Shown here piece after piece: positions 48,588 through 60,914 of a DNA stretch of 64,000 nucleotides (its first letter is position 1; every line of letters begins with the position of its first letter). The position numbers and the translations under genes are program-made. Source of the DNA: Deltaproteobacteria bacterium (GTDB lineage Bacteria; Desulfobacterota; Desulfobacteria; Desulfobacterales; B30-G6). Location: positions 62,001 through 126,000 of the forward strand of contig JAJDNW010000061.1 of NCBI GenBank assembly GCA_022340465.1, read 5' to 3'. The notes beneath the pieces are model-generated. The model worked only from the letters and a program-made list of their open reading frames with translations, ran no database searches and was not told the origin of the DNA.

Positions 48588-48971
48588 TCACGCCTGGAAC
48601 TTTCTCTTCCAGTCGAACTCGCGCGATGTTACCGTGTCCTCCATGCGCCTTATGCGCCGCTCCAAATTTCGAAAACGCCGTTTCAGGCGTGCGGCGGCAT
48701 TGGCTCTCGAATTTACGTAGCTGTCATAAAACTCCGCCTCTGCTTCAGTTTCTATGGGCCGCACCGGTTCCGGCTTCATCACCAGCGAAGCGATGATGTA
48801 TATGAATATCACCGGCCATATGCCGCTTACCAGTAGCATGGCGACCACGATCATGCGAACCCAAAACACCCTGAAATTAAAATAATCCGCCACCCCCCGG
48901 CAAACGCCGAGAACAACTCCCTTGCGGGAACGATACATCGGACGGCCATATCTGCTTTTCCATGCTTTCAT
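48588..48971 (-). CDS. pspC: Phage shock protein C (PspC domain)
   Basis: This 127-residue protein has the PspC pattern PMYRSRKGVVLGVCRGVADYFN (about residues 11-32), followed by a hydrophobic segment (VRMIVVAMLLVSGIWPVIFIYIIA). A charged, coiled-coil-like C-terminus follows (RLKRRFRNLERRIRRME). PspC senses inner-membrane stress and relieves PspA inhibition of PspF in the classical system. Its ATG overlaps the pspB stop (ATGA), so the genes are coupled. Confidence 0.88.
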   Translation of the reverse strand: MKAWKSRYGRPMYRSRKGVVLGVCRGVADYFNFRVFWVRMIVVAMLLVSGIWPVIFIYIIASLVMKPEPVRPIETEAEAEFYDSYVNSRANAAARLKRRFRNLERRIRRMEDTVTSREFDWKRKFQA

Positions 48972-49216
48972 TCTCTGTGATCCTCTCTACGGTTTTCCAT
49001 CAGAATGGTTTCCAGGCTTTCCACGCGTTTTTCCATATCCAGCAACCCCTGGTACAACTCCTGAAACAGACGCGCTTCGTCGGCCTGGTCCTTTCGGCTG
49101 CGCCTCGACATGCCGCCGTGCCTGATGCGCATACCCATGAGAATGGTCCCGGCAATAATACCGACACTCAATACGATTCCGCCAAAAACAATGGCAACGA
49201 TAAAAATTGCGGTCAT
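48968..49216 (-). CDS. pspB: Phage shock protein B
   Basis: This 82-residue protein has one N-terminal membrane segment (FIVAIVFGGIVLSVGIIAGTIL), then a charged helical region (DEARLFQELYQGLLDMEKRVESLETIL) typical of PspB. With PspC it forms the membrane sensor of the Psp response. It lies 129 bases downstream of pspA on the same strand, under the sigma-54 promoter. Confidence 0.82.
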   Translation of the reverse strand: MTAIFIVAIVFGGIVLSVGIIAGTILMGMRIRHGGMSRRSRKDQADEARLFQELYQGLLDMEKRVESLETILMENRREDHRE

Positions 49217-49345
49217 GGTCGATCCATCCTGAAATTTTCTTCACATTCGCGAACAACCATTATTGCCGACTCTCATCTGATTAATCGATCCTACGTTCAA
49301 TTCAGGTCGCCGTAAGATCCCCTGCTGCACGCTCTATCTGAAAAA

Positions 49346-50026
49346 TCACGAGGGCCCGGGCTGTTTTTTTTCCTTCCTGGCCGTTTTCAACGCCGCAAGC
49401 TCTTTTTCAATATCACCGTCCACACTTAAATTGTCAAATTCTTCCTGCAGATTCATCTTTCTGCCGTAATTAACCAGATCCGCTTCGGCTTCCATGCGCT
49501 CGATCCTGTTTTCAAGGCTGTCAAAACGGTTCATGGATTCAAAATTGTCCATGCGCCGGATATCTTCCTGAGCCCGTCTTTTCCTGCGCGCCCGAATGTG
49601 CCGTTGAACGAGAAGACGCTGTTTTTCCCTGGCGTTCTGAAGTTTATCTTCGAGTTGGCGGATATCTTCCTGGTAATGAGTGACCATTTCTTCCAGTTCT
49701 TCCATCTCCTTTTTCATGGCAGCGGACATCTCGGCAAAGCGCCGCCTTTCACTTAAAGCCTCCCTGGCCAGATCGTCCCTGTCCTTGTCGACCGCCAGGC
49801 TGGCCATCTCCTGCCAATACGCCTCACGGTTGTCGGCCTCTTCCAGCCGCCGGCCGAGTTTCTTGCGATTGGCGATTACTCCGGCGCAAGAGGCTTTTAT
49901 CTCCACCAGGGTGTCTTCGATTTCCCTGATCATTAATTTGATCAACTTTTCCGGATCTTCGGCCCTGTCCAGCATGGCATTGATATTCGAACTGACGATA
50001 TCCCTGAATCGTGTAAAAATTCCCAT
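49346..50026 (-). CDS. pspA: Phage shock protein A (PspA/IM30 family)
   Basis: This 226-residue, almost wholly helical, coiled-coil protein starts with GIFTRFRDIVSSNINAMLDRAEDPEKLIKLMIREIED, the PspA/IM30 N-terminus that binds stressed membranes. PspA also inhibits the activator PspF until membrane stress removes it. It is the first gene of the pspABC operon and is transcribed from a -24/-12 promoter about 110 bases upstream. The 3' part of the family, often absent in PspA as against Vipp1, is not extended here. Confidence 0.9.
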   Translation of the reverse strand: MGIFTRFRDIVSSNINAMLDRAEDPEKLIKLMIREIEDTLVEIKASCAGVIANRKKLGRRLEEADNREAYWQEMASLAVDKDRDDLAREALSERRRFAEMSAAMKKEMEELEEMVTHYQEDIRQLEDKLQNAREKQRLLVQRHIRARRKRRAQEDIRRMDNFESMNRFDSLENRIERMEAEADLVNYGRKMNLQEEFDNLSVDGDIEKELAALKTARKEKKQPGPS

Positions 50027-50144
50027 TGTCCAACCCCCATCGTTTTCATCGGTCTTTTATGGAACTGAACTTACCAACAACGCTTGTCTTCTTTATTCTC
50101 CCCGGAGAAACGCATGCAGACATGAAGACGTGTTTTTTTGTTAC

Positions 50145-50161
50145 AGCAGGTTTCATGCCAA
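50145..50161 (-). promoter_or_regulatory. Sigma-54 (-24/-12) promoter of pspABC
   Basis: On the minus strand the sequence TTGGCATGAAACCTGCT matches the -24/-12 consensus YTGGCACGRNNNTTGCW at 15 of 17 positions, including the invariant GG (50159-50158) and GC (50147-50146). Transcription would start near 50134, leaving a leader of about 108 bases before pspA. This agrees with the PspF-type enhancer-binding protein encoded divergently. Confidence 0.8.
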
Positions 50162-50174
50162 CGAGGACAAAGAC

Positions 50175-50187
50175 AATCAACCAGTAA
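50175..50187. promoter_or_regulatory. Candidate IHF-binding site in the psp regulatory region
   Basis: AATCAACCAGTAA matches the IHF core consensus WATCAANNNNTTR at all but one position. It lies about 45 bases upstream of the predicted sigma-54 start site and between it and pspF, the place where IHF bends DNA in the E. coli pspA promoter. Function here is inferred. Confidence 0.55.
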
Positions 50188-50276
50188 CAATTATTGAAAA
50201 ATATAGGGTTGCGCTCCCAATTGGTTTGTGGTAATTTAGACAATATTATAGTAAATAAAACCATTATCTGGTAAAA

Positions 50277-51311
50277 ATGACCACTTCAAAATCATCCTCG
50301 TCTCCACTGGTGCCCACCGATGCCATCGGGCAATCGGAGGTATTTCTCGATTTTCAGGAAAAACTTTCAAGCGTGGCAAGGATTAACCGTCCGTTGCTGC
50401 TGTTGGGGGAACGCGGCACGGGAAAGGAACTGGCCGCCGCCAGACTGCACTACCTTTCGCTTCGTTGGCAGGAACCGTTTGTTGCCCTCAACTGTGCAGC
50501 GCTTTCCCCCACGCTCATCGAATCGGAGCTGTTCGGTCATGAAATGGGCGCTTTCACCGGTGCCATTCAACAGCGCAAAGGCCGTTTTGAGGCCGCCGAC
50601 GGCGGCACCCTTTTTCTGGACGAGATCGGCATGATTCCACTGGAAACACAGGAAAAAATTCTTCGTGTCGTTGAATACGGTAAATTCGAGCGGGTGGGCG
50701 GATCTCGAGTTATCGAGGCGGATGTGCGCATCGTCGGCGCCACCAATGCAGATCTGATCGAACTTTCGCGCCGGGGAAAATTCAAGAGAGACCTCTTGGA
50801 CCGTCTTTCCTTCGAGGTTCTTTTCCTGCCCCCTTTGAGGGAACGTCACGGCGATATACCTCTCATGGCCGACCACTTCGCCCGCAGGATGGCGTATGAA
50901 CTGCAGTGGGAAAATACGCCATCATTCAGCCGGGAGATCATGGCTCTGCTCGAAAACCATCCATGGACGGGCAATGTGCGCGAATTGAAAAATGTCGTTG
51001 AAAGGGCGGTGTACCGTTCCCGAACACCGGTGATAACCCGTATTGATTTTGATCCTTTCGTTTCCCCCTATGCGCTCCAAAAAACCTCCCCTGGTGTCCA
51101 AAAAACCGACGCCGCGCCTTCTGCGAAAACGGAGGCCGTTGCAGGATATGAAGGCCTGCCTCTCAAAGAGGCCGTGCGAAAACTGGAGACAACCTTGCTT
51201 AAAAATGCCATGAATTCAACTCAATACAACCAGAAGAAGGCGTCGAAAAAACTGGGGCTCACCTACGACCAGCTCAGGGGGCTTTTACGCAAATATAAAA
51301 AAGAGATGTGA
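50277..51311 (+). CDS. pspF: Sigma-54-dependent activator PspF
   Basis: This 344-residue protein has no N-terminal receiver domain, as in PspF. It starts almost directly with the AAA+ domain: Walker A GERGTGKE (about residues 43-50), the sigma-54-contacting loop GAFTGA (about 92-97), Walker B GGTLFLDEIG, and the RWVG-like region EYGKFERVGGSR. A C-terminal Fis-type helix-turn-helix (QKKASKKLGLTYDQLRGLLRKY) binds upstream sites. TATAGT at 50247-50252 may be its own -10 box. It activates pspABC divergently and is inhibited by PspA. Confidence 0.9.
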   Translation: MTTSKSSSSPLVPTDAIGQSEVFLDFQEKLSSVARINRPLLLLGERGTGKELAAARLHYLSLRWQEPFVALNCAALSPTLIESELFGHEMGAFTGAIQQRKGRFEAADGGTLFLDEIGMIPLETQEKILRVVEYGKFERVGGSRVIEADVRIVGATNADLIELSRRGKFKRDLLDRLSFEVLFLPPLRERHGDIPLMADHFARRMAYELQWENTPSFSREIMALLENHPWTGNVRELKNVVERAVYRSRTPVITRIDFDPFVSPYALQKTSPGVQKTDAAPSAKTEAVAGYEGLPLKEAVRKLETTLLKNAMNSTQYNQKKASKKLGLTYDQLRGLLRKYKKEM

Positions 51312-51344: not shown

Positions 51345-51920
51345 TTATTTTTCGCGGAACGCGTAGTAGTACGTCATCACCTTCTCAACATATGCTTCGG
51401 TTTCCTTGATGGGCGGAATACCGCGGTAGCGATCGACGATATTGGGGCCGGCATTGTAGGCCGCCAGCGCCAGGGGAAGTTGGCCGTCGTAACGCGCCAG
51501 CAACTCCCGGAAATAGAGCGACCCCCCCATGATGTTCTCGCGGGGATCGAAGGGGTCTTCGATGTTGAAGGCCTCCAGGTTTTCCGGCATGATCTGCATC
51601 AGTCCCATAGCCCCTTTTTTTGACACGGCTTCGGGGTTGAAGTTCGATTCCACCTGGATCATTGCCTTGATTAATGCAAAGGATATCCCCGCGGTGTAGG
51701 CGGCATCGGAAATAATGTGGTCGTATTTGGAAGTGGCGGCCTGTGTATTGGCGATTTTCTTCGGCTTTTCCTTCAAGTACAGTTTGTAATGCGAGGATGT
51801 GGGTGTATTGGTAAAATGAAGAATGCCGTCGCTGTCGAGATACATATATATGTCCGCAACAGCCGGTGTTGACAGTTGAAAAAGGCTCACGAGCAGGGTG
51901 ACGGCCATGTATTTTTTCAT
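51345..51920 (-). CDS. Lytic transglycosylase, SLT family, with N-terminal DUF4124-like segment
   Basis: This 191-residue protein has a signal peptide (MKKYMAVTLLVSLFQLSTPAVA). A short domain with IYMYLDSDGILHFTNTPTSSHYKLY resembles DUF4124. It is followed by a lysozyme-like SLT domain with catalytic Glu in IKAMIQVESNFNP (about residue 93), GAMGLMQIMP and LALAAYNAGPNIV. These enzymes cleave the MurNAc-GlcNAc bond of peptidoglycan to form 1,6-anhydro ends in the periplasm. It is two bases downstream of the helicase fusion gene, suggesting co-transcription, and ends at a bidirectional terminator. Confidence 0.85.
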   Translation of the reverse strand: MKKYMAVTLLVSLFQLSTPAVADIYMYLDSDGILHFTNTPTSSHYKLYLKEKPKKIANTQAATSKYDHIISDAAYTAGISFALIKAMIQVESNFNPEAVSKKGAMGLMQIMPENLEAFNIEDPFDPRENIMGGSLYFRELLARYDGQLPLALAAYNAGPNIVDRYRGIPPIKETEAYVEKVMTYYYAFREK

Positions 51921-51922
51921 GA

Positions 51923-54900
51923 TTAGAACAATTCCAGTTGGGTATGGCCCCTTTTTTTTAAGGGGCTTTCGTCGATCTTACGGTAATTTTTCAGACCCTG
52001 CCGAATGTCGAACATAAATTTGGACGGCTCACGAGCTTCCTTTTTTCCAAAAACACTGCGTTTTTGGGCGTAGGATAGAAAAAGAGCCTGTTTGGCACGC
52101 GTCATGGCTACGTACAACAACCTGCGCTCTTCATCCTCGTCGGTCCCATGTTTCCCCTCACGCACAAATGGCACAAGGCCACGCTCACAGCCGCTAATGA
52201 AAACCACCGGAAATTCAAGCCCTTTTGATGCATGCATGGTCATCAGGGCGACTTTTTCCGCTCTCGAATCGAACATATCCGTATCCGTGTCCAGCGCCGA
52301 TGCCAGGCACAATGCCTGTTTCGAGTCGTATTGTCCCGATGTAACAATGAAATTGTCCAACACATCCCTTTTTTTTGCATCGTTCGCCGTTTTTTCACGA
52401 ATAGTGGTATTTATTAAAATATAATCGATGGTTTCCTGAAGATCACAGTCTTTCGTTTCCAAACGCATGCGCTCGAGCTTATCGATGAATTGCACAAATT
52501 TTAACTGGCGTTCCTTTTTCATCTGTTTCAGTGGAAAACGGCGAATATTTTTCAGGCTTTCGTCCAGGCTGAAACCGTTTTCAAAAGCCCAATCTCTCCA
52601 CGTAGTCACGGTTTTACGACCGACCCCGGAGCCGGAATATTCGCAAACCCTCTCCACATCCAGGTATGATCCGATGCGGGACACTATTTTTAAAAAGGAG
52701 AGGAGCGCAAGAACGCATTTTTCCGAATAGGCCTCTTTTTTTGAGACGACCTGACAGGGAATTCCGGCCCGTTCGAAGACTTCGGCAAAAATGTTGCACT
52801 GGCGTGCGGTCCGCATCAACACGGCAAAATCGCCAAAAGAATAATCCGACGCGGTTGAATTGAGGTCCGTTTTATCGAAATCGATGGAATAAAAACCGAC
52901 CCCGCCCACCATTTTTTCGATCTCCTTGCCGATGGTCACCGCTTCGCCCTTTTCATCGAAACAAGGCAATATCTCTATGTGTTCAGGGCCGTCTATCTTC
53001 GAAAACACGGTTCCGGTTCCCGCCGCCCGGTTTTCCCTTGCCGATCGTATCAACTGCTGGGATGCTTCGAGAACGACCCGAACGGAACGGTAATTCTGAG
53101 AAAGATTGATGGATTCAGCACCGGGGTAATCCCGGGTAAAACGATTAAAATACCTGACGTCCGAACCTCTGAATCCATAGATGGACTGGTCAGGATCACC
53201 GATGACGCATATATTGGCATCCGCGGGCGCCAGTTGCCTTATCATGCGATACTGGGCAAAATTGACGTCCTGATACTCGTCTATAAAAAGAAATCTATAT
53301 CTATTTCGAATCGTTTCCTTCCGCGCCGGGTCATTTTCAAGGGTATTGACCACATTACATAAAAGATCCTCATAATCCCACAAACCCTCCCTTGAAAGCA
53401 GTTTCTGATAAAACGCGTAAACCCTCTGAAAATTTATCTCATCATCGTCTTTGATGCGACCGGGGGTATGGTGGGGGCCGCGGATGTGTCGCTTTTCCTG
53501 AGCGATCCTCTCAAGCAGTTCGGAAATATCGAATAATGCATCTGGATCCGATCGTTTCAACCAGCTGACCGCCCGCTCCAAAAAGTATCGACGTTCACTT
53601 TCGTCGACAACCCTGAAAGAATCATATGCCTCGTTTTCCGCCAACATCTGAACACAGAAGGCATGAAATGTCGCTGCCAAAGGCACTCTTTTTTCATCTT
53701 GCAGAAGGTGTTGCAACCGTTGACGCATTTCTTGGGCGGCTTTGTTGGTAAAGGTCAACGCCAATATTTGATCCGGCCCCGCCTGCCCGTTTTCAATGAG
53801 AGAAGCAATTTTGTGGGTGATGGTCAGGGTCTTGCCGGTGCCCGGACCGGCAACAATGATCATGGGGCCGTTTGTGTGGCGAATCGCCCGCTGCTGCCGG
53901 TCGTTAAGCGTTGGTGACGTTTTCACGACGCCCCTGCACCGGTTAGAACGCTTCTCAGGACCGTTTTTTTTTTGAAAAAAGATTCGTTCGCCCTCAGCAG
54001 CACCTTTCTTTTTTTTCACATTCGGCATTTTGAAAAGAGGTTTCTGGCCGAATAAAAATGCCCTTTCCTCCTTGTCGAAAATTTCTATTTTTCCGAATTC
54101 ACCATCGAATCCGGGATCTATATTCACTTTTTTCCGGCGCACCCGCTGAATGGCTTCACTCAAATGGGGTAATTCGACACGTTCGAGATTCTCAAAGGAT
54201 AAACTGTTTACGATCTTCAGTTCCGGACCCAGATGATCCAGCAGGCGTTCATAGTGATAGGACACCTTTTTGGTATTGGGTCCCACGCCCAGAAGCTCAG
54301 ATAATATTTCTTCCAGTGGGATGATGCTTTGGTAGGGATGGCAAATCGAAGGCATTTGCCCCTCCAAACGGCTTGCCAGTTCTTCTACCCTGTACAGAAC
54401 ACCCAGCGTCATCGGCCTTTTGCACACCGGGCAGATGCCGGCTTTTTCCATGGTGCCGGCGGGCCATGAACGAACCCCGCATTTCCGATGCCCGTCAAGG
54501 TGATATTTTCCCTCCTCCGGATAAAATTCCAGCGTTCCTAAAAACCGATCGGGATCTCCCGATTCCATCGCCCCGCGAATGCTGTCGAACGACAAATCCG
54601 TGTCGAACCTATTGGCTTCCCTGCCCAGTTTGCCGGGCGAATGCGCATCTGAATTCGAAATGAGGGTCAAACCATCCAGAAATTTTACACGCCAGTTCAT
54701 GGGAGGATCCGATGACAATCCGGTTTCAACGGCAAATATATAGGGGGTCAGATCTTCGAAACACGCTTCGACGGTATCAAAACCGGATTTAGATCCAAGA
54801 AGCGAAAACCAGGGAGTCCAGATATGTGCGGGTATGAGAAAATTTTTTTCCGAGGTTTCGAGTACAATTTCCAGCAGATGCTTGGCATCGAGACCCAGAA

Positions 54901-55315
54901 TCGGCCTTCCATCGGAATGAACGTTGCCTATTTTTGCAAGTTCAGCGTTGAATTTTTTCGCGATATGTAAATCAGGAATAAATATAAGGTTGTGATTTTT
55001 TCTGGTTTTTCCATTTTTCTTATATATGTTGCTTATTTCACATGTCAGTATGAAACGGATATCGTCACGGCAGGATTTTGGAATGTGGCGTTCCAGCGAT
55101 GAAGCGATATCTTCCTTTAATTTAAAAAGACCATCCTCCGCGGGCGTTAGTTTGGCTTCTATTTCGGAAAACCACCCCGGATGGGTGAAATCGCCGGTGC
55201 CGATCACCTTCAATCCTTTTTTCTGAGCGGCGATATACAGATTTTCCAGGTCTAAATTTTTTGAGGTTGCGCGAGAATATTTTGAATGGATGTGAAAGTC
55301 AGCAATAAATTTCAT
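51923..55315 (-). CDS. Fusion of an EndoQ-like PHP DNA endonuclease with a UvrD/PcrA-type SF1 helicase
   Basis: This 1130-residue protein is a fusion. The first 430 residues match endonuclease Q: a PHP domain starting DFHIHSKYSRATSKN, TGDFTHPGW, SNSDAHSPGKLGREAN, and a zinc-finger region with KCG and CPVC near residues 278-300. EndoQ cuts DNA 5' of deaminated bases in archaea and some bacteria. From about 465 to the end is a superfamily 1A helicase: Walker A AGPGTGKT (about 487), FIDEYQD (about 678), GDPDQSIYGFRGS, NYRS, MTMHASKGLEFPVV and LLYVAMTRAK. Nicking followed by unwinding in one chain fits repair of hydrolytic base damage. It is divergent from dnaN. Confidence 0.8.
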   Translation of the reverse strand: MKFIADFHIHSKYSRATSKNLDLENLYIAAQKKGLKVIGTGDFTHPGWFSEIEAKLTPAEDGLFKLKEDIASSLERHIPKSCRDDIRFILTCEISNIYKKNGKTRKNHNLIFIPDLHIAKKFNAELAKIGNVHSDGRPILGLDAKHLLEIVLETSEKNFLIPAHIWTPWFSLLGSKSGFDTVEACFEDLTPYIFAVETGLSSDPPMNWRVKFLDGLTLISNSDAHSPGKLGREANRFDTDLSFDSIRGAMESGDPDRFLGTLEFYPEEGKYHLDGHRKCGVRSWPAGTMEKAGICPVCKRPMTLGVLYRVEELASRLEGQMPSICHPYQSIIPLEEILSELLGVGPNTKKVSYHYERLLDHLGPELKIVNSLSFENLERVELPHLSEAIQRVRRKKVNIDPGFDGEFGKIEIFDKEERAFLFGQKPLFKMPNVKKKKGAAEGERIFFQKKNGPEKRSNRCRGVVKTSPTLNDRQQRAIRHTNGPMIIVAGPGTGKTLTITHKIASLIENGQAGPDQILALTFTNKAAQEMRQRLQHLLQDEKRVPLAATFHAFCVQMLAENEAYDSFRVVDESERRYFLERAVSWLKRSDPDALFDISELLERIAQEKRHIRGPHHTPGRIKDDDEINFQRVYAFYQKLLSREGLWDYEDLLCNVVNTLENDPARKETIRNRYRFLFIDEYQDVNFAQYRMIRQLAPADANICVIGDPDQSIYGFRGSDVRYFNRFTRDYPGAESINLSQNYRSVRVVLEASQQLIRSARENRAAGTGTVFSKIDGPEHIEILPCFDEKGEAVTIGKEIEKMVGGVGFYSIDFDKTDLNSTASDYSFGDFAVLMRTARQCNIFAEVFERAGIPCQVVSKKEAYSEKCVLALLSFLKIVSRIGSYLDVERVCEYSGSGVGRKTVTTWRDWAFENGFSLDESLKNIRRFPLKQMKKERQLKFVQFIDKLERMRLETKDCDLQETIDYILINTTIREKTANDAKKRDVLDNFIVTSGQYDSKQALCLASALDTDTDMFDSRAEKVALMTMHASKGLEFPVVFISGCERGLVPFVREGKHGTDEDEERRLLYVAMTRAKQALFLSYAQKRSVFGKKEAREPSKFMFDIRQGLKNYRKIDESPLKKRGHTQLELF

Positions 55316-55511
55316 TTAATCATTATTTTAAACGGTTCAGGTATCGAATATGCTTGTATAGTCTTGCCAAAAAGGCTATATATTTATATTTAATACGTTA
55401 TTAACTACAACATATAGTATTCTGTCGCTGTTTTTCCTTCTTAACAGATCGTATGTTGTCAATAAGTATGGAATTATGAACAACATCGGAGACACTGCAC
55501 AAAAAATGGTC

Positions 55512-55534
55512 GTTGTTGATAGGTAATCAACAAC
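55512..55534. repeat. Perfect inverted repeat upstream of dnaN
   Basis: GTTGTTGAT (55512-55520) and ATCAACAAC (55526-55534) flank AGGTA. The 9-bp arms are perfect. It is a candidate protein-binding operator for dnaN or the divergent helicase gene. Confidence 0.6.
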
Positions 55535-55600
55535 TTTATTGTAAAGTATTAAATATATTTATGTAAATATATTCAATATATTATGTGCTTTTTGTAGTTA

Positions 55601-55633
55601 TTGACAGCATATATATATAATTACTTTTATACT
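55601..55633 (+). promoter_or_regulatory. Possible dnaN promoter
   Basis: An exact TTGACA lies at 55601-55606. Downstream -10 candidates are TTTTAT (55625-55630, spacing 18) and TATACT (55628-55633, spacing 21). AAGGA upstream of the ATG at 55651 gives the ribosome binding site. The exact -10 is uncertain. Confidence 0.45.
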
Positions 55634-55650
55634 TTAAATAAGGAATAGAT

Positions 55651-59210
<3,560 letters not shown>

Positions 59211-59229: not shown

Positions 59230-59397
59230 ATGGTAACGGCAAATCTCACCGGGATTTGCCGTATCCTATCGGCCGGCCGGGTGGGCAAAGCGGACGAGGT
59301 GACGGCCTGCATCTGCTTTCTGGCATCCCATATGGCCCCGTTTGTGGTGGGCGCAGCCTGGTCCAAAGATGGTGGTTTGACGGCTTTCGGCTATTAG
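59230..59397 (+). pseudogene. Remnant of a short-chain dehydrogenase (FabG-like) C-terminus
   Basis: This 55-codon stretch encodes AGRVGKADEVTACICFLASH and then FVVGAAWSKDGGLTAFGY, ending at a TAG. This is the C-terminal end of an SDR enzyme (GRxGxxxEV, LAS, G-x(3)-S/D-DGG). No upstream SDR sequence, including the TGxxxGxG or YxxxK motifs, is found: gyrB ends at 59210 directly before it. It is best read as a decayed gene fragment left between gyrB and the convergent KASIII-like gene. A short translated product from the ATG at 59230 is possible but would not be a functional SDR. Confidence 0.65.
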
Positions 59398-60914
59398 AGA
59401 ATCTGCAGAAAAGAACTTCGCGTCATTCCGGCACCGACAGAGTCATTCAGGATGATCCTGGCGGATTGAAGCGTCTTCACATTGCGGTTGACAGGAAATC
59501 CATTGATGGTATCGGGTTTGAGTGCGCCTCTCGCCAGGTCGTATGGCAACCGTTGCATGCATACAACGGAGCAGTTGCCCCTTTCGTGAACGTTGGTGAT
59601 CATCTTGTTGGCCAAATAATCCGTGACATCCTTTTTCAAGTCGGGTTGTCCGTTTTCCAGCACCTTTTCAAGGGTTAGGGGCAGCATGGCAAAATTGGCC
59701 TGGTGTTCGATCAGCAGGTCGAGTTTTTTCATGGACAGGTTGTTGTTCGAAAGCAGGGTGTGGATGTGGTGCGTGGCACCTCTTGTCGCGTAAAGAAAGA
59801 CGCCTTTGCCGTTCATGTCTCCAAAAACATCGTTTTCGAGTTCGAGGGCCTGTATATACTCCGCAAAGCATCCGTGGGTTCTGGTGCGGGCATCCACAAT
59901 CCCTTTTTCCGGTTTCAGGAAAGGAAAGGGTCCGCCACTGTGGATCGTCAGGCGGAAAGTCAAATCCGCGCGCAGGTAGATGGACACGATGGTGCGATGT
60001 TTTCCCGCAAGGATGTAGGCTTGAGCCAGGGTTTCGACCATCTGGGGGTCGTCTGCTAACGTATTGATGTCATAAGCAAAAGAATCAACATCGCCGTCGT
60101 ACAAGTCGAGCAGGCCTTTAAAACCCCTGGCCTGTTTTATCTTTTTCGGAAAAGTGCGCTCGACCAGGCTGTGCTGAAGTCTGGCGGCCGTGGCCGGAAC
60201 CCTGTGGGGCAGTGAACCCAACTTGTTGTCTAAGATGATTCCGTCTATTTTTTCGCCTTGATTTAAATCGTGTATGATTTCAGCCAGGTGATCGATAAAA
60301 TCCGGCCTGAGCACTCCCTGGAAAACCCTGGTTTCAATGGTGTTGTCCGGAGGATCCACTTGTGCGGTTGTTTCGAGGGCCGTTGCCAGGGAGTCATCAC
60401 CAAAAATGATGTTGGAGGTATCCAGAGGTGTAAACGCCTGGCAACGGTGAATGTTTTCAGCCCCGACGACAATGGATATGTCTCCCTTTTTGAGAAAACC
60501 GGAGAGGGAGAGCATGAGGAGCAGTTCCACACTGACGTTGTATCCCGGGCAACCGGCATACAGGTCGAAGGGAACCGCTGTTGGGCATTGCTCCCTGATT
60601 ACGTCGAAGGGATATCTGATCAGCGGTCCGGCGTCGTGTTTGTCGTCACCGACATTGGTGGCTCCGATGACGATCTTGACGCGGGCGGGATCGAATTCCG
60701 CTTTATCCATCAGGTCTTTCAGCGAAAGCGTTCCAATCCGCGTATCCTGAGGGGCGACGACGCGGGTCCTGACGCCGACGCGTTCTTGAATGGTTTTGTT
60801 GTTGACGGGAATATTGCCTTTGAAAAACATTCCCTTGTTTTCGTACATGGCGTTATCCGTGAGGGTACCGCCGTTCCATGCGCCGTAATCGATGATTTGC
60901 AGGGCAGAATTCAT
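59394..60914 (-). CDS. Long KASIII (FabH)-like 3-oxoacyl-ACP synthase family protein
   Basis: This 506-residue protein is far longer than FabH (about 320). It has FabH/thiolase-fold landmarks: a nucleophilic cysteine in LYAGCPGYNVSVELLLML (about residue 130), GAENIHRCQ, a histidine-containing motif LLIEHQANFAML (about 405), and GNCSVVCM (about 455) at the position of FabH GNTSAAS. The C-H-N triad thus appears complete. About 180 extra residues lie between the cysteine and histidine regions. It may condense an acyl-CoA or ACP starter with malonyl-ACP, but its substrate is unknown. It converges with the SDR remnant. Confidence 0.7.
   Translation of the reverse strand: MNSALQIIDYGAWNGGTLTDNAMYENKGMFFKGNIPVNNKTIQERVGVRTRVVAPQDTRIGTLSLKDLMDKAEFDPARVKIVIGATNVGDDKHDAGPLIRYPFDVIREQCPTAVPFDLYAGCPGYNVSVELLLMLSLSGFLKKGDISIVVGAENIHRCQAFTPLDTSNIIFGDDSLATALETTAQVDPPDNTIETRVFQGVLRPDFIDHLAEIIHDLNQGEKIDGIILDNKLGSLPHRVPATAARLQHSLVERTFPKKIKQARGFKGLLDLYDGDVDSFAYDINTLADDPQMVETLAQAYILAGKHRTIVSIYLRADLTFRLTIHSGGPFPFLKPEKGIVDARTRTHGCFAEYIQALELENDVFGDMNGKGVFLYATRGATHHIHTLLSNNNLSMKKLDLLIEHQANFAMLPLTLEKVLENGQPDLKKDVTDYLANKMITNVHERGNCSVVCMQRLPYDLARGALKPDTINGFPVNRNVKTLQSARIILNDSVGAGMTRSSFLQIL

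Follow-up and report, generated by a model that had tools for sequence, protein, structure and literature searches.

We describe an open reading frame, encoded in the 64-kb stretch of Deltaproteobacteria DNA analyzed here (the window), that joins an endonuclease Q (EndoQ)-like domain to a UvrD-type helicase, and whose product is probably a nickase-helicase for damaged bases that is tethered to the replication sliding clamp. The frame (51923-55315) has an ATG start and is intact, encoding 1130 aa, and its start (MKFIADFHIHS) aligns with the starts of its homologs. The original prediction had placed an EndoQ fused to a UvrD-type helicase at these coordinates, beside dnaN and gyrB. Each of these points is borne out: the gene lies on the minus strand, both folds occur in the predicted model of a single intact frame, and dnaN and gyrB, confirmed by Pfam, are divergent on the plus strand, 335 bp away. 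The features are as follows:

51923-55315, minus strand: EndoQ-UvrD fusion gene, 1130 aa, intact, with its start as in homologs
54044-55315, minus strand: EndoQ-type domain, residues 1-424, with PHP catalytic, zinc, and C-terminal regions (5zb8 matched at E 1.1e-48 and 4e-50; catalytic residues conserved; pLDDT mostly 85-97)
54422-54490, minus strand: zinc site H276, C279, C295, C298 (PfuEndoQ C249, C252, C268, C271), from the alignment to PfuEndoQ and 49 fusions
54032-54049, minus strand: internal clamp-type motif GQKPLF, residues 423-428, at the EndoQ/linker border (conserved in the same order; disorder from 424 on)
53912-54031, minus strand: Lys-rich disordered linker, residues 429-468 (pLDDT <50 for 424-467; column conservation mostly <35%)
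51986-53911, minus strand: SF1A (UvrD/PcrA/Rep-like) helicase core, residues 469-1110 (profile and structure matches, motifs, predicted fold)
Within 51986-53911, minus strand: helicase motifs Walker A AGPGTGKT (489-496), DEYQD (679-683), GDPDQSIYGFRG (706-717), and motif VI (1062-1074)
51926-51940, minus strand: C-terminal beta-clamp-type pentapeptide QLELF, residues 1126-1130, in a disordered tail (Q1126 and F1130 invariant in a 34-row same-order alignment)
55651-56769, plus strand: dnaN, beta sliding clamp, divergent neighbor and predicted partner (Pfam DNA_pol3_beta, three domains)
56769-59210, plus strand: gyrB (Pfam)

The N-terminal ~430 residues had been read as carrying EndoQ features (a PHP domain and a CPVC zinc region). 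Residues 5-414 match PfuEndoQ (5zb8) with 36% identity (E 1.1e-48), a relation that, judged by sequence similarity, is far above chance, and the CPVC lies at residues 295-298. With positions mapped from the alignment to PfuEndoQ, the conserved catalytic residues of the fusion are D6, H8, H10, D42, E93, H108, H164, D223, and H225. Among these, E93, H108, and H164 correspond to PfuEndoQ E76, H84, and H139, mutation of which abolishes activity (PMC8307549), and the remaining PHP ligands of PfuEndoQ (D6, H8, H10, D193, and H195) are identical in the fusion. The lesion-pocket residues G169, S171, and H139 correspond to G199, S201, and H164. Across 49 fusions from many phyla, E93, H108, H164, G199, and S201 are invariant, and the catalytic and metal positions are invariant or conserved in 48/49; the loss of metal ligands, named in the original prediction as one finding that would count against it, is thus not what the alignment reveals. 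The zinc site is HCCC, compared with four Cys in PfuEndoQ, and its first position is His in 48/49 fusions while the three Cys occur in 49/49; this set could plausibly still bind zinc. Overall, the fusion shares with endonuclease Q (PfuEndoQ, TkoEndoQ, and Bacillus EndoQ; TIGR00375) the full-length domain, all catalytic and pocket residues, the zinc region, and a C-terminal motif for a clamp (PCNA or beta). It differs in its added helicase, its insertions, the Cys to His zinc ligand, and a score below the TIGR00375 cut-off; in addition, the clamp motif of the domain no longer stands at the end of the protein, where a second one is found instead.

The rest of the protein had been described as a complete SF1A helicase, and residues 469-1110 do match PcrA, UvrD, and Rep across the whole core, with Walker A, DExQD, motif III, motif VI, and the UvrD fold all present. 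The same 49 fusions all keep Walker A Lys495, D679-E680, R743, and R1073. None of the NCBIfam equivalog cut-offs is reached (PcrA, 433.6 vs. 911.2; UvrD, 352.8 vs. 1144; Rep, 353 vs. 951), and the PcrA profile match ends at position 637 of 725, indicating that the C-terminal extension is missing. The fusion therefore has the entire helicase core, the motifs, and the fold of UvrD-DNA complexes in common with the SF1A helicases PcrA, UvrD, and Rep, whereas it falls mostly in its own tree group, carries a clamp motif in place of the C-terminal extension, and has an N-terminal nuclease. An AlphaFold model built with 49 homologs predicts both folds with high confidence (mean pLDDT 85.4) and shows residues 424-467 and 1116-1130 as disordered, and a Foldseek search with this model matched PfuEndoQ (TM 0.88) and UvrD-DNA complexes (TM 0.87; TM by target length). 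The linker is flexible, and the model does not define how the halves are arranged relative to each other (pTM 0.61).

The conserved clamp-type motifs, which the original prediction did not mention, are more informative about function than the dnaN-gyrB neighborhood. The protein ends in QLELF, and in the same-order alignment of 34 rows L1129 is conserved at 97% between the invariant Q1126 and F1130, with the preceding columns mostly <45%. QxxLF occurs within the last 15 aa of 88/105 fusions vs. 3/994 other ORFs of the same loci, and a looser form of the C-terminal motif is found in 101/105 fusions. QxxLF is present in 0/44 of the unrelated ORFs that have Lys/Arg-rich tails and, at the C-terminus, in 0/12 true stand-alone helicases of the same genomes (the negative control); the background in random 53-residue windows is 44/4970. 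Because the homologs are related, an exact test on these counts overstates significance; it argues more strongly that the motif persists although the tail leading up to it diverges. One candidate stand-alone helicase with a clamp motif (L200) was rejected, as it appears to be a contig-cut fusion of genome G002.

A second motif, QKPLF, occupies residues 424-428, where the fold ends and disorder begins, and is conserved in the 34 same-order fusions (Q424, 97%; L427, 88%; F428, 100%). Stand-alone bacterial EndoQ ends at this same place with (G)QxxLF in 20/32 cases, which suggests that the internal motif is the former tail motif of EndoQ. Both motifs are found in 27/33 same-order fusions and 33/72 other fusions; 13/105 fusions have strict QxxLF at neither site, most of them with a C-terminal near-match (e.g., QLRLL). 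The marks of a beta-clamp client, namely a QLxLF-type pentapeptide in a disordered, exposed segment that is conserved across homologs, are all present, and from these sequence features the two motifs are likely to dock the protein on the replication sliding clamp. In archaea, PCNA stimulates EndoQ, which binds it via a PIP box at its C-terminus (KD 55 nM), and the clamp consensus at bacterial EndoQ C-termini was already noted in 2016 (PMC4858679). Like the archaeal EndoQ-PCNA complex, the fusion would be a lesion nickase tethered by a C-terminal peptide to the sliding clamp. The archaeal complex differs in having no helicase and in pairing PCNA with a PIP box, where the fusion would pair DnaN with QLxLF.

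In the mechanism we propose, the C-terminal QLELF and the internal QKPLF would dock the protein on the DnaN ring, possibly with one motif per protomer. The EndoQ domain would flip out the lesion (hypoxanthine, uracil, or an AP site) and cut on its 5' side, and the damaged strand would then carry a 3'-OH and a 5'-phosphate at the nick. The 3'-5' SF1A motor of the same protein would next load there, on the undamaged strand, and displace the damaged strand as a 5' flap, after which a polymerase and a flap nuclease would replace the patch and ligase would seal it. The nick, its chemistry, and the helicase polarity are presumed by analogy with characterized EndoQ and UvrD enzymes. We infer clamp binding, strand choice, and the coupling of nicking to unwinding, the last of these from the covalent linkage of the two halves, and the earlier suggestion of nicking and unwinding in one protein is plausible. 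Helicase strand removal after EndoQ incision has already been proposed for archaea (PMC4357722). Strand choice could be set by clamp orientation. To remove the damaged strand starting at a 5' nick, a 3'-5' motor has to travel along the undamaged strand, as Rep does on a leading-strand template. Incision by EndoQ does not itself produce a 3' single-stranded tail, and loading of the motor may therefore require an additional step. Counting against the mechanism, some members of the order appear to have lost the helicase, and a few fusions are without canonical clamp motifs.

Other readings of the protein were weighed against this mechanism. The PHP part might instead be a different phosphoesterase (a PolX/DnaE-type 3' exonuclease or a phosphatase) and not a lesion-specific nickase, which we regard as highly improbable. 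Its TIGR00375 score is below the curated cut-off (159.5 vs. 326.6 bits), for which reason the domain is named EndoQ-like and not a TIGR00375 equivalog, and Pfam gives only a sub-threshold match, to PHP_C alone; however, this cut-off is reached by 0/296 phylum genomes, and is thus set tightly around other branches. Among solved structures, EndoQ alone was significantly matched, over nearly its full length and including the zinc and C-terminal regions, with no significant match to other PHP enzymes, and the lesion-pocket residues are conserved; the assignment to EndoQ over another phosphoesterase family, on which the original prediction also depended, is accordingly retained. It is also conceivable, albeit rather unlikely, that the two halves act separately, with the helicase as a general UvrD/PcrA substitute (in NER, mismatch repair, and fork restart), EndoQ as an independent base-damage nickase, and a fusion that only co-expresses and co-localizes them on the clamp. 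Apart from the fusion, the host genome has just one UvrD-type helicase of ordinary length (670 aa), neither it nor the fused one reaches the PcrA, UvrD, or Rep cut-offs, and stand-alone EndoQ is kept in many lineages, all of which would suit this reading; yet most of the 13 genomes searched encode both the fusion and a separate UvrD-type helicase of ~650 aa, and most fused helicases stay tied to EndoQ (fused or adjacent) across phyla. In the helicase tree, most fused helicases group together, and most fused and gene-adjacent helicases are likewise apart from the stand-alone PcrA/UvrD-like ones of the same genomes, although strict monophyly of the fused helicases is not claimed, given the long branches of this quick tree and the three fused and two adjacent rows that it places near the stand-alone side.

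A role in defense, as an anti-phage nuclease-helicase acting on uracil- or hypoxanthine-containing foreign DNA with a logic like that of Gabija, appears very unlikely. While Bacillus EndoQ has been proposed to act in defense (PMC8307549) and GajB models do match the helicase, the scores of these matches reflect generic UvrD similarity, and the EndoQ half has no PADLOC match. Furthermore, the EndoQ domain is nearly universal in the order (52/58 relatives) and absent from phage and plasmid records, the sampled loci have no consistent defense neighbors (one Uma2-type ORF lies beside L134), no GajA was found among the neighbors examined, and the protein carries clamp motifs. Gabija GajB and AddA/RecB similarly couple a helicase of the same superfamily to a nuclease, whereas the fusion has a nuclease of the PHP/EndoQ class, clamp motifs, and no defense neighborhood.

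For a clamp-tethered nickase-helicase, the reading that we prefer, the repair genes of the host bear on the choice of lesion. The host genome carries UDG and Nfo, and uracil and AP sites therefore have other routes. Neither EndoV nor an AAG-type glycosylase is detectable in this genome (completeness 95%; the search covered AAG-type, as distinct from AlkA-type, glycosylases), which leaves room for a role in hypoxanthine repair, and of the candidate lesions it is hypoxanthine that most likely requires the fusion. EndoV occurs in 11/58 relatives. Replacement of EndoV by EndoQ was considered and rejected, since the EndoQ-less genomes are too few (six, two with EndoV) to show it.

Published accounts present EndoQ as an archaeal enzyme that is found in few bacteria, and the bacterial carriers given in a 2015 paper were Bacillus and Desulfovibrio (PMC4357722). 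The original prediction accordingly took the fusion for an uncommon bacterial route, a view that the distribution overturns: EndoQ-like genes, stand-alone and fused, are present in 183/278 good genomes drawn from the phylum, and a scan of genome contigs located the fusion in at least ten bacterial phyla. These include Chloroflexota, Gemmatimonadota, Myxococcota, Actinomycetota, Bacillota, Fibrobacterota, Latescibacterota, Elusimicrobiota, Planctomycetota, Binatota, KSB1, and others; the scan covered 80 loci and was seeded from the source lineage, and so shows presence, not frequency. In relatives from the order, the domain lies mostly in frames of 1,100-1,200 aa. Many of the carriers are MAGs, and sequenced isolates also have the fusion, among them the named strains Desulfonema magnum, Phytoactinopolyspora halophila, Actinoallomurus soli, Frankia sp. 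CIT1, and Bacilliculturomica massiliensis.

A tree of EndoQ places every fusion in a single 113-row group (SH-aLRT 95), in which splits and losses are scattered. EndoQ and a related helicase are instead encoded by two neighboring genes in Peregrinibacteria, Omnitrophota, Nitrospirota, and Elusimicrobiota (L135, L142, L161, L169), and in L142 and L161 the adjacent EndoQ and helicase both end in a clamp-type motif. This arrangement, with the tree read without an inferred root, fits a single old joining of neighboring genes, each with its own clamp tag. A mobile origin of the fusion was rejected, the EndoQ domain being without a match in phage or plasmid records. In four loci of the same order (L045, L050, L044, L034), an EndoQ-only gene ends approximately where the clamp motif would begin, and these genes seem to have lost both the helicase and the motifs.

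No description of an EndoQ-UvrD fusion was found in the open-licence PMC literature. The sequences themselves are very probably already in protein databases, and our claim is consequently one of an undescribed architecture with a proposed mechanism, not of unseen sequences. We give an even chance to the broader proposition that many bacteria have a self-contained, clamp-riding excision machine, with two clamp-docking peptides, a nick 5' of the deaminated base, and its own helicase to strip the damaged strand. If true, this would constitute an undescribed, glycosylase-independent bacterial repair pathway parallel to archaeal EndoQ-PCNA, in which the strand-removal motor would give a concrete downstream step after the EndoQ nick, and hypoxanthine and uracil repair would be tied to the replication clamp in bacteria.

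The position of the gene beside replication genes, to which the original prediction also pointed, holds at this locus and fails as a general link. The dnaN-gyrB pair is near the fusion gene in 21 of 40 stretches from the same order, many of which are truncated at contig ends, and in some additional contigs from this lineage; it was not found in the sampled loci of clearly other phyla, where the neighbors are unrelated, and the neighborhood was rejected as a general functional link because it is lineage-specific. Within the window, cumulative GC skew has its minimum at 52000-58000, and G+C drops to 42% around the gap between the fusion and dnaN, as at a replication origin. DnaA boxes are not enriched, and none lies in this intergenic gap; no replication origin is therefore claimed.

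In many relatives, two consecutive ORFs separate the EndoQ-UvrD gene from dnaN (L027:4848-5999, L049:6523-7660, L052:9283-10454, and other same-order loci). The first has a weak match to RdgC (PF04381) and the second has no Pfam match; together they may represent a split or divergent RdgC, and both are absent from the 64-kb window. Phage-shock genes (pspC, pspA, and a PspF-type activator; 48588-51311) are located near the fusion, with a lytic transglycosylase gene (51345-51920) in between. Beside gyrB, a 506-aa ORF (59394-60914, minus strand) has a sub-threshold match to the C-terminal domain of ketoacyl-ACP synthase III.
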